10,520 nucleotides of DNA from Flavobacteriales bacterium (GTDB lineage Bacteria; Bacteroidota; Bacteroidia; Flavobacteriales; Flavobacteriaceae): NCBI GenBank assembly GCA_002737105.1, contig NSHO01000054.1:1-10520 (forward strand), read 5' to 3'. Of the stretch, positions 3,089 to 10,520 are shown piece after piece (position 1 is the first letter of the stretch; each line of letters opens with the position of its first letter). The notes under the pieces were generated by a model. It saw only the letters and a program-made list of their open reading frames with translations. It had not been told where the DNA came from and did not search any database. The position numbers were made by a program, and so were the translations under genes.

Positions 3089-3120
3089 AAAAAAGCGAGA
3101 AAATACTTCTCGCTTTTTTT
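3089..3120. terminator. Bidirectional intrinsic terminator between convergent genes
   Basis: AGCGAGAA (3094-3101) and TTCTCGCT (3107-3114) form a perfect 8-bp stem with a 5-base loop. The stem is flanked on the left by A3089-3093 and on the right by T3115-3120, extending pairing with A-U pairs and giving a T-run on both strands. It lies 13 bp after the PLP-enzyme stop codon, and its right flank overlaps the stop codon of the convergent ferredoxin gene (3119-3121), so it can end transcripts from both sides. Confidence 0.88.
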
Positions 3121-3451
3121 ATTGTTCTGGTGCTATTTCTATTTCCAAGCCCTCTAAGTCTTCCGAAATATGTATTTGACAACCTAATCGGCTATTGTCT
3201 TTCACGTGATAGGCGTCTGTTAACATGGCTTCTTCATCGTCGTTTCTTTCAGTTTTTAGAACATCGTTTAGCACATAACATTGGCAAGAAGCACACATCG
3301 CCATTCCGCCGCAAATTCCAACAGTTCCTTCTTCTGCCAATTCGTAGGAACGGATGAGTTCCATCACATTCATGTTCATATCCGTTGGGGCTAAAACTTC
3401 ATGTTTTACTCCGTTTCTATCGGTAATAAATAGGGTTACGTCTTGACTCAC
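3119..3451 (-). CDS. 2Fe-2S ferredoxin (adrenodoxin/ISC-like)
   Basis: A 110-aa acidic electron-transfer protein with the cluster ligands of the adrenodoxin/ISC ferredoxin type: C47-x5-C53-x2-C56 in the ICGGMAMCASC segment and C91 in RLGCQI. It should pass single electrons in the cytoplasm, for example to Fe-S assembly. A reductase that could reduce it is encoded on the same strand about 0.7 kb upstream (4126-5184). The start is a GTG at 3449-3451 that shares one base with the TAG stop of the nucleotidyltransferase gene (TAGTG). The same frame has a TAA three codons further up and no ATG between, and starting at the next internal ATG (M25) would remove conserved N-terminal beta-strand sequence, so GTG is the best start. 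Translation is probably coupled to the upstream gene. The gene ends inside the bidirectional terminator. Confidence 0.9.
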   Translation of the reverse strand: MSQDVTLFITDRNGVKHEVLAPTDMNMNVMELIRSYELAEEGTVGICGGMAMCASCQCYVLNDVLKTERNDDEEAMLTDAYHVKDNSRLGCQIHISEDLEGLEIEIAPEQ

Positions 3452-3906
3452 TATTTTTTATTCTTCATTAATTGTTCCACGTCTGCCAAATCTTTTAGCC
3501 TCCCTGTTGTGCGTTTATTTTTCATCAAATCTTCAAAATCTATATAAGGTATTTTAAATTTATCAAAATTAATATTTTCGCAATTTTTTTTCGATTCTGT
3601 AAATTCTAAACCGCTAACCTTAGTTAATATTTCAATTTTTCTCGGCTCCACACCTATGCTCCAAACATCAAATTTATCGCTTTCGAAATCTTCAATTGAA
3701 AAAATTGGGGCGCCAAAATTAGTATAAACTAGTTTTAATTTATTATAGTTTTCTGTGGTTTGGTTTACCCACAAATCCATGTCGCCTGTACTTCTTGAGT
3801 AGCCATGAAGTATGACCGCATATCCTCCAACTAATAAATATTCAACTTCGTGTTTATCTAATAGTTCTAAGAACTCAAGAAAATCAATATTAAATACGTT
3901 CTGCAT
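3451..3906 (-). CDS. AbiEii-like nucleotidyltransferase (pol-beta superfamily)
   Basis: A 151-aa small nucleotidyltransferase. Residues 24-47 hold the signature: LLVGGYAVILHG (GG at 27-28, the GS-motif position) followed by RSTGDMDLW, with probable metal-binding D42 and D44. A probable third acidic residue is E92 in RKIEILTKVSG. The C-terminal KNKRTTGRLKDLADVEQL (129-146) is the conserved tail seen in AbiEii/DUF6036-like proteins. This superfamily includes type IV toxin-antitoxin and HEPN/MNT-type toxins or antitoxins that transfer nucleotides to RNA or protein. Here there is no AbiEi-type winged-helix partner. Instead the gene overlaps an upstream 68-aa gene by 17 bp, which indicates a translationally coupled pair. 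Catalytic motifs look intact. The target and the toxin/antitoxin role are inference only. Confidence 0.8.
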   Translation of the reverse strand: MQNVFNIDFLEFLELLDKHEVEYLLVGGYAVILHGYSRSTGDMDLWVNQTTENYNKLKLVYTNFGAPIFSIEDFESDKFDVWSIGVEPRKIEILTKVSGLEFTESKKNCENINFDKFKIPYIDFEDLMKNKRTTGRLKDLADVEQLMKNKK

Positions 3907-7127: not shown

Positions 7128-7763
7128 TTACTTATTCAAGTTATAAATCGTAAAAACGGCGATTAGTCCGGTAATGATAGCAATTATAAAGTTAATGTTT
7201 TGAATAAAAAAAGTAACTTTATGTTTGATTTTTCTAAACAAAAAAGCATAGCCCATAAACACCGTAAATGTGCCTAAAGTTGTACCTAAAACAAATGCTA
7301 AACCAACTAAATTAGTAAAAAAATCTTCGATATAAGCTGACAGATATAAGCTTACAAAAGCATAATACGGAATTGGAAAAATATTTAACCCAGAAATAAA
7401 AATCCCATGAACAAATGGTTTTAATTTGCTTTTTGTTGCATTCTTTTTTATGGGATCTTTAGCATGAATGACTTTTTGAATACCCTTGCCTAAAAAAAAT
7501 AAGGTTAATAATATAAAAACTAAGCTTCCAACTAACTTTAAATTTTGCATTACTTGTGGATGACTTTCTAAAAAAGTGGCAAAGTAAAACCCTAAAATAC
7601 TTTGAATAAAAACCACTAAAACAGCGCCATTGATAAACTTTCTGGCTTTATTTAGTGATTTTTTAACGCTATAATTGGCAACGGTCATATTTACAATTCC
7701 TGGAGGCAAAACCCCCACGAACGAAAACAAAACTGCAAAAGCAAAAGCGAAAAGTATAGACAT
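7128..7763 (-). CDS. LysE-family transporter
   Basis: A 211-aa integral membrane protein with about six hydrophobic segments, near 4-28, 44-66, 76-95, 116-145, 150-175 and 188-208. The first helix holds GVLPPGIVNMTVA (17-29), matching the PPG/PGP motif of the LysE/RhtB exporters, and the basic loop KKSLNKARKFINGA follows as expected. The family exports amino acids or related small solutes from the cytoplasm; the substrate here cannot be told. The start ATG overlaps the trmB stop codon by one base (TAATG), and the alkyltransferase-like gene begins one base after its stop, so the three are almost certainly one operon. Confidence 0.87.
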   Translation of the reverse strand: MSILFAFAFAVLFSFVGVLPPGIVNMTVANYSVKKSLNKARKFINGAVLVVFIQSILGFYFATFLESHPQVMQNLKLVGSLVFILLTLFFLGKGIQKVIHAKDPIKKNATKSKLKPFVHGIFISGLNIFPIPYYAFVSLYLSAYIEDFFTNLVGLAFVLGTTLGTFTVFMGYAFLFRKIKHKVTFFIQNINFIIAIITGLIAVFTIYNLNK

Positions 7764-8437
7764 TATTTAATTTTAAATTGAATGTAGGTAATGCTTTTAT
7801 TTATTTTTAAATACTGACTTTCATAAAAAGTTTGAATACTGGTCACTTCTTCAGGCGCGCCGGCGTTGTTGTATACATTATGGTTGGCGTACAAAACTTC
7901 ATGTCCTTCACCGTGTAATAAGCCCAAAGTGAAGCCATGCATAAACTCGCTATCGGTTTTTAAATGCATCAAACCGTTGGGTTTTAATATTTTTTTATAG
8001 TTCTGAAGAAATTCAGAATTGGTCATGCGGTGCTTGGTGCGTTTGTATTTTATTTGCGGATCTGGAAAGGTAATCCAAATTTCATCTACTTCATTTTCAT
8101 CAAAACAATGCTTAATTAATTCAATTTGAGTCCGAAGAAATGCCACATTTTTTTGTCCGTTTTCTACAGCAGTTTTAGCCCCTCGCCAAAATCGGGCACC
8201 TTTAATATCAATTCCAATAAAGTTTTTGTTTGGAAATTTTTCTGCTAATCCTACAGTATATTCGCCTTTTCCGCAACCTAATTCTAATACAATTGGATTA
8301 TTATTTTTAAAGAAATCTGAATTCCATTTTCCTTTTAATGCTAAACTATCAGTAACTACTTCTTCACGAGTTGGTTGAAAAACGTTTGGAAACGTTACAT
8401 TTTCGTTGAATCTTTTTAATTTATTTTTACTTCCCAC
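7763..8437 (-). CDS. trmB: tRNA (guanine-N7-)-methyltransferase
   Basis: A 224-aa SAM-dependent methyltransferase that makes m7G46 in the tRNA variable loop. The SAM-binding motif I is LELGCGKGE (51-59), followed by NFIGIDIKGARFWRGA (72-87). The TrmB signature FPDPQIKYKRTKHRM (124-138) carries the basic residues that contact tRNA. HLKTDSEFM (158-166) and the terminal T-F-Y-E segment (203-206) match the family's catalytic/SAM contacts. Length is normal. It is the first gene of the operon with the LysE-family gene. The gap before it (8438-8490) contains a possible -7 promoter element. Confidence 0.95.
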   Translation of the reverse strand: MGSKNKLKRFNENVTFPNVFQPTREEVVTDSLALKGKWNSDFFKNNNPIVLELGCGKGEYTVGLAEKFPNKNFIGIDIKGARFWRGAKTAVENGQKNVAFLRTQIELIKHCFDENEVDEIWITFPDPQIKYKRTKHRMTNSEFLQNYKKILKPNGLMHLKTDSEFMHGFTLGLLHGEGHEVLYANHNVYNNAGAPEEVTSIQTFYESQYLKINKSITYIQFKIK

Positions 8438-8456
8438 AACAATTAATTTTATCCTA

Positions 8457-8464
8457 CAAAAGTA
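8457..8464 (-). promoter_or_regulatory. Possible -7 element for the trmB operon
   Basis: TACTTTTG on the minus strand fully matches TAnnTTTG and lies 19 bases before the trmB ATG, in the 53-bp gap after the histidine-kinase gene. I find no TTTG or TTG at 17-23 bp upstream, so this is weak evidence for a separate trmB promoter. Confidence 0.35.
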
Positions 8465-8490
8465 TAAAAATTAAAGTTTTGAAGGTCTAA

Positions 8491-9537
8491 TTATTTACTA
8501 GTTTTCAAGGTAAACGAAAACTCAGAACCTATTTGATGCGTGCTTTGCACAAATATTTTTTCGTTGTGTGCTTCAATAATGTGTTTTACGATGGCTAAGC
8601 CCAAGCCAGAACCGCCCTCTTCTCTTGAGCCGCTTTTGTTAACTCTGTAAAAACGTTCAAAAATTCTAGACATATGTTGTTGTTCAATTCCTTGCCCGTT
8701 ATCGTAAATGCGCACTAAAATTTTGGTTTTACTTATTTTTTCTACGGCAATTTCTGTGGTGCCATTTTCTTTTCCGTATTTGATTGAATTCATGACTAAG
8801 TTGGTTAAAACTTGTTGAATTTTATCTTTATCGGCATAAACAATTATGGGAGAAACGTATTTTTCATCAAACATTAAAATAATGTTTTTGGCATCGGCTT
8901 TCATTTCTAAAAGATCAAAAACGTTTTGAATTTCGGCAATAATGTCAAATCCTTCGATATCTATGTTTAAATCACCAATTTCAAATTTAGAAATCATATC
9001 TAAATCTTGCACAATATTAATTAGTCTTTCAACGCCTTTTGATGCGCGTGCAATATATTTTACACGTAGGGCTTTGTCTTTAATGGCGCCGCCTTCGATA
9101 AGTGTTTCTAAATAGCCTTGAACTGTAAAAAGTGGTGTTTTTAATTCGTGAGAAATGTTACCTAGGAATTCTCTTCTATATTCTTCACGAATGTTTAAGG
9201 ATTCAATTTCAATTTTTTTCTCTTTGGCGAAGTTTCTTATGTCGTTAGTTAAAGTAGAAACATCGGTGGTAACAGTTTTGTTTTTTAAAGAAGTGGCGTC
9301 TAAAAGAGAAACCTCATCATATAATTTTTTAATTCTTTTGTAGATAAATACTTCTACACGATATTGCATTAGAAAAAAACTAAAAAAGAATAATGTAATT
9401 GGAAAAACAATCAATATTAAGTAGTCTACTAACTGAATAAAATTATGGTAAATCAACAAACTTATTACAACAAAAAAAGAAATGTAAAGCGATGATTTAA
9501 ATGCAAATTTGTAAGATTTTTTAAAACTAATCGCCAT
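8491..9537 (-). CDS. Sensor histidine kinase, PhoR-like
   Basis: A 348-aa membrane histidine kinase. Two hydrophobic helices lie at about 16-31 and 37-58 with almost no loop between them, so there is no extracytoplasmic sensor domain. A charged helical linker (60-120) leads to the HisKA domain with phospho-accepting H130 in FLGNISHELKTPL. It is followed by the ATP-binding domain: N-box N250 (LVMNSIKYG), G1 box DNGQGIE (279-285), F-box FERFYRV (293-299) and G2 box GGSGLGLAIVK (308-318). All catalytic motifs are intact. It overlaps the response-regulator gene by 11 bp, so the two are co-translated partners. PhoR likeness is suggested by the lack of a periplasmic domain, the partner's type and the Pho-box-like operator upstream. 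The signal is not shown by the sequence, and no PAS domain is evident. Confidence 0.9.
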   Translation of the reverse strand: MAISFKKSYKFAFKSSLYISFFVVISLLIYHNFIQLVDYLILIVFPITLFFFSFFLMQYRVEVFIYKRIKKLYDEVSLLDATSLKNKTVTTDVSTLTNDIRNFAKEKKIEIESLNIREEYRREFLGNISHELKTPLFTVQGYLETLIEGGAIKDKALRVKYIARASKGVERLINIVQDLDMISKFEIGDLNIDIEGFDIIAEIQNVFDLLEMKADAKNIILMFDEKYVSPIIVYADKDKIQQVLTNLVMNSIKYGKENGTTEIAVEKISKTKILVRIYDNGQGIEQQHMSRIFERFYRVNKSGSREEGGSGLGLAIVKHIIEAHNEKIFVQSTHQIGSEFSFTLKTSK

Positions 9538-10222
9538 TTAATTCAATTTTGTATCCCACACCTTTAATGGTTTTGAATACATCTTCGTCAATTTTTTCTC
9601 TAAGTTTTCTGATGTGAACATCTATGGTTCTACCGCCAACAATGACTTCATTGCCCCAAACTTTATCTAAAATTTCGGCTCTGGTGAACACTTTTCCTGG
9701 TTTTGAAGCTAATAAATATAAAAGTTCAAATTCTTTTCTTGGTAAAACGATGGTTACGCCGTCTTTGATAATTTTATATTCTTCTCTGTTTATTAGAAGA
9801 TTTCCTACAGTTAATGTTTCGGAATTTTCTAATTCTGTATCTTTTAATCTACGTAATAGTCCTTTTACCTTACTAACTAATAATTTTGGTTTAATAGGTT
9901 TGGCGATATAATCGTCGGCGCCAACTTCAAAACCGGCTACTTGTGAATAATCTTCGCTTCTAGCGGTAAGAAAGGTAATAATGGTGTCTTTTAATTCTGG
10001 AATTTCTCTAATTTTTTCACAGGCTTCCATTCCGTCCATTTCTGGCATCATCACATCCATAATAATAAGATGTGGTTTTACTTTTATAGCCAATTTAACA
10101 GCTTCTTTACCATTTTCTGCTTTGGTAACGTGGTAGCCCGCTTGCTCTAAATTATAACCAACAATCTCCAGAATATCCGGTTCGTCGTCAACCAATAATA
10201 TTTTTATGTCTTTCTTTTTCAT
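9527..10222 (-). CDS. Response regulator, OmpR/PhoB family
   Basis: A 231-aa two-domain regulator. The receiver (5-122) has the acidic pair D12-D13, phospho-acceptor D56 (IMDVMMPEMDG), T86 (FLTAR) and K108 (AKPIKP). The C-terminal winged helix (about 136-228) includes LPRKEFELLYLLASKPGKVF, the recognition-helix region VGGRTIDVHIRKLREKI and the wing KTIKGVGYKIEL, typical of PhoB/OmpR proteins. It should bind tandem direct repeats as a phosphorylated dimer. The intergenic region upstream contains such repeats with PhoB/PhoP spacing (10313-10374), which supports assignment as a phosphate-type regulator that controls the divergent receptor gene and possibly itself. The histidine-kinase gene overlaps its end. 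Start ATG at 10220-10222 directly precedes KKKDIKILLVDDE. Confidence 0.92.
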   Translation of the reverse strand: MKKKDIKILLVDDEPDILEIVGYNLEQAGYHVTKAENGKEAVKLAIKVKPHLIIMDVMMPEMDGMEACEKIREIPELKDTIITFLTARSEDYSQVAGFEVGADDYIAKPIKPKLLVSKVKGLLRRLKDTELENSETLTVGNLLINREEYKIIKDGVTIVLPRKEFELLYLLASKPGKVFTRAEILDKVWGNEVIVGGRTIDVHIRKLREKIDEDVFKTIKGVGYKIELNGD

Positions 10223-10312
10223 ATTGAATATAAAAGTAATTAAAAAAATTTAAGTTCCGTAAAATTATATATAAAAATGACAATAAATACTTATTTACTA
10301 TTATTTAATCTG

Positions 10313-10374
10313 TTAACATTAACTTAACATTTTGCGTACTAATAAATAACCTCTAAGTAACATTAACGTAATTG
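10313..10374. promoter_or_regulatory. Pho-box-like operator: phased TTAACAT direct repeats
   Basis: TTAACAT (10313-10319) and TTAACAT (10324-10330) are perfect 7-bp direct repeats 11 bp apart, separated by TAAC. A second pair, GTAACAT (10357-10363) and GTAATTG (10368-10374), has the same 11-bp step, again with TAAC between. The second pair starts exactly 33 bp (3 x 11) after the last repeat of the first, and ATAACCT (10346-10352) fits the same phase. Direct repeats of TTAACA type every 11 bp are the known binding pattern of Bacillus PhoP and, with another base sequence, of E. coli PhoB. The array lies between a PhoB-like regulator gene and a TonB-receptor-like gene. Confidence 0.65.
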
Positions 10375-10383
10375 AGGTGGGTC

Positions 10384-10391
10384 TATTTTTG
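10384..10391 (+). promoter_or_regulatory. -7 promoter element of the TonB-receptor-like gene
   Basis: TATTTTTG fully matches TAnnTTTG and lies 22 bases before the ATG at 10414. No TTTG is present at the normal -33 distance; instead the last Pho-box-like half-site ends 9 bp upstream. That is the arrangement of an activator-dependent promoter in which the regulator substitutes for the upstream box. Confidence 0.55.
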
Positions 10392-10413: not shown

Positions 10414-10520
10414 ATGAAATTAAAATTTCTACTTATTGGATTATTCGTTACGGTAATCTCATTCGCACAAAACACAGCCAAAGTTGCTGGTTTAATTACA
10501 GACAAAGACAGCAAACAACC
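10414..10520 (+). CDS. TonB-dependent receptor-like outer-membrane protein, N-terminal part
   Basis: The first 35 codons are present; the gene continues beyond the window. It opens with a signal peptide (MKLKFLLIGLFVTVISFAQ, cleavage about residue 18-19) and then NTAKVAGLITDKDSKQ, the start of a carboxypeptidase-regulatory-like (CarboxypepD_reg) domain as found at the N-terminus of Bacteroidota TonB-dependent receptors (usual form GxVxDxxxxxP). Such proteins import nutrients through the outer membrane. A surface protein with the same domain but no beta-barrel is also possible, because the diagnostic plug and barrel are outside the window. The gene is divergent from the PhoB-like regulator and its promoter abuts the Pho-box-like operator, so it may be a phosphate-starvation receptor. 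Confidence 0.7.
   Translation, partial: MKLKFLLIGLFVTVISFAQNTAKVAGLITDKDSKQ

Follow-up and report, generated by a model that had tools for sequence, protein, structure and literature searches.

The 191-bp gap between a PhoB-like response regulator gene and the ATG of a divergent TonB-dependent receptor gene, at the end of the window (the whole stretch of 10,520 nucleotides analysed here), holds an array of half-sites repeated every 11 bp. The array is conserved among related species and recurs before phosphate genes, and the genes around it stand in the order of genes that are induced by phosphate depletion in Flavobacterium johnsoniae. We read the gap as the control region of a flavobacterial phosphate (Pho) system in which the regulator, seated on the array, activates the receptor promoter, and we give this reading a probability of roughly 0.8.

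We propose that low phosphate would lead the kinase to phosphorylate the neighbouring regulator, which would bind head to tail along the array (10313-10374) on one face of the helix; the promoter-proximal half-site, standing in the place of a -33 box, would recruit RNA polymerase and thereby fire the receptor promoter at TATTTTTG. Through the distal pair the regulator most likely adjusts its own divergent promoter, and the receptor itself probably takes up a phosphorus compound. As far as sequence comparison can tell, the array suggests a switch by which phosphate-scavenging genes would be turned on at phosphate shortage. The kind of element, the PHO box, is already known; the operator at the PhoBR receptor gap is what is described here. 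Much organic phosphorus is recycled by Bacteroidota, and a consensus of fixed geometry would allow the Pho regulon to be read from sequence; it predicts the receptor and its lipoprotein neighbour to be members of that regulon and provides a compact promoter on which activation at a Bacteroidota -7 box can be studied.

Layout of the gap and the 11-bp array

The window shows the Flavobacterium PhoBR layout of regulator, kinase and divergent TonB receptor, the last being cut by the window end (Table 1). The lipoprotein next to the receptor, which completes the layout, is present in the loci of F. difficile (L031) and F. pectinovorum (L088), and the receptor orthologue in the former carries PF13715 and Plug domains. 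The regulator scores 205.7 bits against TIGR02154 (cut-off 296.2) and 207.2 bits against NF053854 (cut-off 270), and since it falls under both of these PhoB cut-offs we name it PhoB-like rather than file it under either model; RprY (NF051850), with 129.5 bits against 207 for the PhoB models, is not its best model. For the kinase the scores are 220.2 bits with PnpS (cut-off 400) and 214.6 bits with PhoR (cut-off 334.2).

A few features of the surroundings may be recorded in passing. Only about 54 bp (8437-8491) lie between the kinase gene and the gene at 7763-8437, and the glycosyltransferase gene found behind the kinase in F. difficile (L031 11706-12767) has no equivalent at that place in the window. 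Further off, a 151-aa gene (3451-3906), nucleotidyltransferase-like by eye, adjoins a 110-aa ferredoxin-like gene (3119-3451), and no counterpart of the former is listed between the corresponding L031 genes. The kinase of genome G001 is 100% identical to that of the window, and its contig stops inside the regulator gene.

Table 1. Genes and control elements around the regulator-receptor gap, in window coordinates
Feature	Position	Strand	Basis or conservation
Histidine kinase, PnpS/PhoR-like	8491..9537	-	NCBIfam PnpS and PhoR matches, below cut-off
Response regulator, PhoB-like	9527..10222	-	best NCBIfam models are PhoB, both below cut-off
Distal conserved pair TTTACTATTATTTAAT, candidate autoregulatory site	10294..10309	.	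alignment and column counts
Half-site 1, TTAACAT	10313..10319	+	sequence; T/A/A/C in 43/44/44/43 of 45 gaps
Half-site 2, TTAACAT	10324..10330	+	T/A/A in 43/45/45 of 45 gaps, then C in 21 or T in 23
Slot 3, degenerate half-site	10335..10341	+	A at 10338 in 45/45; C/T at 10339 in 44/45
Half-site 4, ATAACCT	10346..10352	+	TAA in 45/45, then C in 35 or T in 9
Half-site 5, GTAACAT	10357..10363	+	TAAC in 45/45
Half-site 6, GTAATTG	10368..10374	+	relatives mostly TTTACA; lies where a -33 box would be expected
-7 box TATTTTTG, predicted receptor promoter	10384..10391	+	9 bp after the last half-site
TonB-dependent receptor gene, first codons, ATG at 10414, cut by window end	10414..10520	+	window sequence

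The half-sites and the -7 box had been located by a sequence-only reading of this DNA, and its coordinates are exact to the base. That reading had also remarked that a -33 box is missing, and indeed no TTG or TTTG is seen some 19 bp ahead of the -7 box, from which the TTG at 10372 is only 9 bp away; judged by its position in the sequence, half-site 6 fits the place of the -35/-33 box in this predicted promoter. The slot at 10335 it had taken to be empty, which is wrong, as the 45 aligned gaps show a degenerate yet conserved half-site there. The array has the geometry of a PHO box, with direct repeats, a period of 11 nt and about seven conserved and four variable positions in each repeat. Ten TAA[CT] words occur in the gap, five of them on one 11-bp register; none of 5000 dinucleotide shuffles of the gap reached five words on an 11-bp register, and at the other periods from 6 to 16 at most three words share a register.

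A scan of the named genomes with the regulator gave at least 80 loci, and among the 80 listed 47 have a divergent receptor with a carboxypeptidase-regulatory-like N-terminus. These 47 gaps were aligned with that of the window, and columns were counted in 45 rows, three of the 48 gaps (L039, L063 and L098), shortened by a too-early choice of start codon, being left out of the counts. The 11-bp register is not lost in relatives, and the array is present in the 45 aligned gaps. For the four slots starting at 10313, 10324, 10346 and 10357, the T and both A's of the TAA core are each kept in 43-45 of the 45 gaps, and the spacers vary. By phase over 10313-10378, the commonest letter has a mean share of 0.93 (T), 0.88 (A), 0.99 (A) and 0.79 (C), and of 0.42 to 0.67 in the remaining phases. 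Upstream of the array the distal pair reads mostly TTAAC and, 11 bp on, TTTAAT; it is off the register of the array because it is spaced 8 bp, not 11, before it. The half-sites at 10313-10330 had been named as a pair that could also control the regulator's own promoter; the conserved pair nearest the regulator proves instead to be the one at 10294-10309. The -7 box keeps TTTG in relatives, usually as TTnnTTTG, the flavobacterial sigma-A -7 consensus being TAnnTTTG (PMC9723704).

TTAA-like words are common in the window DNA, and loose patterns are as frequent as their reversed controls, which might favour mere chance repetition in AT-rich DNA. This explanation is already contradicted by the conservation of the array, the core of which is kept in 45 gaps, and given also the outcome of the 5000 shuffles and the period-specific recurrence described below, we regard it as scarcely credible.

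Recurrence of the array before other genes

A half-site matrix of seven positions, built from five slots of the relatives' gaps with the window left out, gives the window array at 10313 a score of 33.1, against 9.6 for the best place elsewhere in the window that does not overlap it; none of 5000 shuffles of the gap came up to 33.1, the highest reaching 25.9. The 80 loci, extending up to 10 kb either side of the regulator and amounting to 1,494,525 bases, contain 124 places above 12, and the 90 of these 124 that are listed all fall in the interval from -3182 to +2222 relative to the start of the regulator. Apart from those in the gap, they group in two places that played no part in building the matrix: some 3 kb upstream, ahead of the gene that follows the receptor, and some 2 kb downstream, behind the kinase.

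Upstream regions were scored by the best five of six slots against a null of 805 other genes of the same loci, with a 95th percentile of 5.7 and a 99th of 11.1. A first null of 836 genes had taken in, from five loci, pst genes adjoining the regulator, and these 31 genes were removed from it; the pstS genes of L063 and L083 still stand near the top of the null. The scored rows throughout are related species and are not independent. The gene that comes next after the receptor, in most cases encoding a lipoprotein, has a median of 17.5; the 95th percentile is exceeded in 32 of 43 cases, and of the 11 that fail 8 are outside Flavobacterium. The OprP-position gene after the kinase has a median of 23.3 and exceeds that percentile in 16 of 16 cases. 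Strong arrays at this position are found in L088 (12160-13455) and in 15 other loci. The pstS genes do so in five of five, although those scored lie near the regulator and are thus not independent of its neighbourhood.

Among PhoX-like lipoprotein genes 9 of 11 lie above the 95th percentile, or 13 of 19 when the eight PF05787 rows left out of the main scoring are restored, with L123 and L141 representing one gene. In the phytase operons no phytase (0/19) scores above 7 at its own start, and the receptor before the phytase was scored instead: 11 of 14 lie above the 95th percentile, and 12 of 19 exceed 5.7 once the five regions left out of the main scoring are put back. Only 1 of 29 PhoA genes, one of 30 having been dropped by a length filter, and none of 25 binding proteins that belong to the Pfam family of pstS and in our judgement are not pstS lie above the 95th percentile. 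When the period is shifted to 8-10 or 12-14 the medians fall to about -1 to 6, with several shifts still significant; the significance at other periods is an effect of composition, so it is the size of the shift and not the p-value that carries the point.

The sequence-only reading had expected the pattern to be enriched before phosphate genes. This holds for the matrix at the named genes, but not for the bare consensus counted over whole genomes against reversed controls. With up to two mismatches, TTAACAT-N4-TTAACAT occurs 82 times in G001 and its reversed control 182 times, and two four-slot TAAY patterns in G001 and G002 gave 28 against 48 and 30 against 33; three WTAAC words at 11 bp have 12 places in 12 genomes against 6 for the control. 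The gapped pattern has three exact matches in G002, one of which is the regulator-receptor gap. Phytase and PhoA gave no match in G001 and G002, nor did PhoX in G002, and the PBP_like_2 matches in these two genomes were judged not to be pstS, those with a locus scoring 0.5 and -2.9.

Two minor observations belong here. A CCP_MauG gene follows the PhoX-like gene of L133, which recalls the pairing of Fjoh_2478 with Fjoh_2477 (PMC8115612). Three near relatives of the window have, upstream of a small secreted-protein gene, pairs of TTAAC at a distance of 11 bp (L031 2198-2713, L032 534-1040 and L003 1603-2049), with scores of 17.3, 17.3 and 19.6.

The phosphate link and the reader of the array

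The regulator/kinase pair had been taken from the first for the Pho system of this organism, and this is now backed by the gene order of Fjoh_0541-0546 and by orthologues that face phosphate genes (see below). By gene order the window trio corresponds to Fjoh_0543-0545. The genes of the F. pectinovorum locus (L088) run from a glycosyltransferase (PF04101) and OprP (PF07396) through kinase and regulator to receptor and lipoprotein, an arrangement equal to that of the 'PhoBR operon' (Fjoh_0541-0549; Table 1 of PMC8115612), where kinase, regulator, receptor and lipoprotein follow one another as in the relatives of the window; the orthology rests on gene order and Pfam domains rather than on F. 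johnsoniae DNA. PF14905 is listed for Fjoh_0545 in that paper and was not reported in our Pfam scan of the L088 receptor.

Under phosphate depletion, the fold changes given there, which we read as log2, are 8.02 for the receptor (Fjoh_0545), 9.91 for the lipoprotein (Fjoh_0546), 3.06 for the regulator (Fjoh_0544), 0.76 for the kinase (Fjoh_0543), 7.59 for Fjoh_0549 and 5.42 for the glycosyltransferase (Fjoh_0541); according to the same source the genes beside the gap show no response to iron or nitrogen limitation (PMC8115612). OprP (Fjoh_0542), at -1.3 on the same scale, was not significant, and this value counts against a simple reading because F. pectinovorum and other relatives have strong arrays before OprP; repression, another signal or a strain difference may lie behind it.

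The same expression values bear on the idea that the array acts chiefly on the promoter of the regulator itself and that the receptor is driven from elsewhere. Fjoh_0544 is itself induced, and pairs such as TAACATTAAGGTAAC persist upstream of the regulator where no adjoining receptor was found (L082, L090 and L102). Yet Fjoh_0545 rises more than Fjoh_0544 (8.02 against 3.06; PMC8115612), the array ends 9 bp before the receptor -7 box, and arrays of this type also precede genes remote from the regulator promoter, so that we consider this explanation very improbable.

The main rival concerns the protein that reads the array, which might be chiefly another OmpR-type regulator, above all an RprY-like paralogue, with the neighbouring pair a bystander or co-regulator. 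The DAP-seq motif of the Riemerella anatipestifer 'PhoP', in which TTTAACA is most conserved, is nearly the window half-site and is reported also before a TonB receptor; it was compared with ArcA and not with a Pho box (PMC9603813). A primer for this 'PhoP' gene (Table 2 of PMC5399024) matches exactly in three genomes of one genus among 320 searched, and the RprY-like regulator located by it lies at 1401-2087 in L270-L272. The protein is 33% identical to the window regulator and has RprY as its best model with 291.8 bits (below the cut-off of 370), the PhoB model giving 174.6. Since it thus turned out to be a paralogue, its TTTAACA motif is no proof of binding at the window array and was dropped as such, and since it is suggested to be RprY-like its targets should not be counted as Pho regulon. 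A second regulator may therefore read a word similar to the array half-site. As the principal reader, though, an RprY-like protein seems unlikely to us: the array clusters round the PhoB-like regulator's own gene and before pstS, PhoX-like and OprP genes, and the F. johnsoniae neighbours respond to phosphate and not to iron or nitrogen limitation (PMC8115612).

The Pho reading of the predicted operator is well supported, and the sequence-only interpretation appears right in outline, the case for a putative Pho operator with a lineage-specific half-site being supported. Like the PHO box of Escherichia coli (CTGTCAT), Bacillus subtilis and Streptomyces coelicolor, the array is made of 11-nt direct repeats before phosphate genes. 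Its half-site, TTAACA/TAAC, is unlike CTGTCAT or GTTCACC, and the array has about six slots, of which one is degenerate, next to a Bacteroidota -7 box. The PhoP of Bacillus recognises words resembling TTAACA. A PHO box has been described as a set of 11-nt direct repeats lying before phosphate genes, with seven positions better conserved and four less so (PMC4415409).

Within the open-licence literature we found no operator sequence stated for the PhoB-like regulator. The Bacteroides fragilis PhoB (BF1576), a Bacteroidota Pho regulator like that of the window, is needed for pstC expression, and no operator sequence is given in the available text of PMC3547664. The words 'motif' and 'promoter' are absent from the text of PMC8115612, the accessible portion of PMC9723704 mentions neither PhoB nor TTAAC, and that of PMC8812569 neither PhoB nor a box. 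Putative Pho boxes near plcP are reported in marine bacteria without their sequence (PMC4796936).

Distant orthologues and the genes they face

A match to the regulator at 1e-60 is found in 175 of 246 sampled genomes of the order, and 28 such loci besides that of G001 made up a distant sample in which 20 gaps were scored. On the strand facing away from the regulator, only 8 of these 20 distant gaps exceed 11.1 and 14 exceed 5.7, so the motif weakens with distance. In the Riemerella genus, a separate PhoB-like orthologue (55%; L275 4743-5420) adjoins a receptor-sized gene and a lipoprotein gene. The array score of that locus is 1.2, despite these neighbours.

A tentative reading, to which we give somewhat less than even odds, is that of a very old phosphate divergon across Flavobacteriales, in which the operator plan beside the Pho regulator (a regulator-side pair and a helically phased array of about six slots replacing the -33 box) would have been kept and the driven gene exchanged, the cargo being a TonB receptor with a lipoprotein, pstS with further pst genes, or a porin with a phosphate permease. 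In two of the distant loci (L281 and L294) the regulator faces pstS, followed by genes that by eye resemble further pst genes; in two others (L297 and L298) it faces a porin-like gene, that of L297 being below Pfam cut-offs, and then a pstS-like gene; and L288 has OprP and a PHO4-family transporter, a phosphate permease, opposite the regulator.
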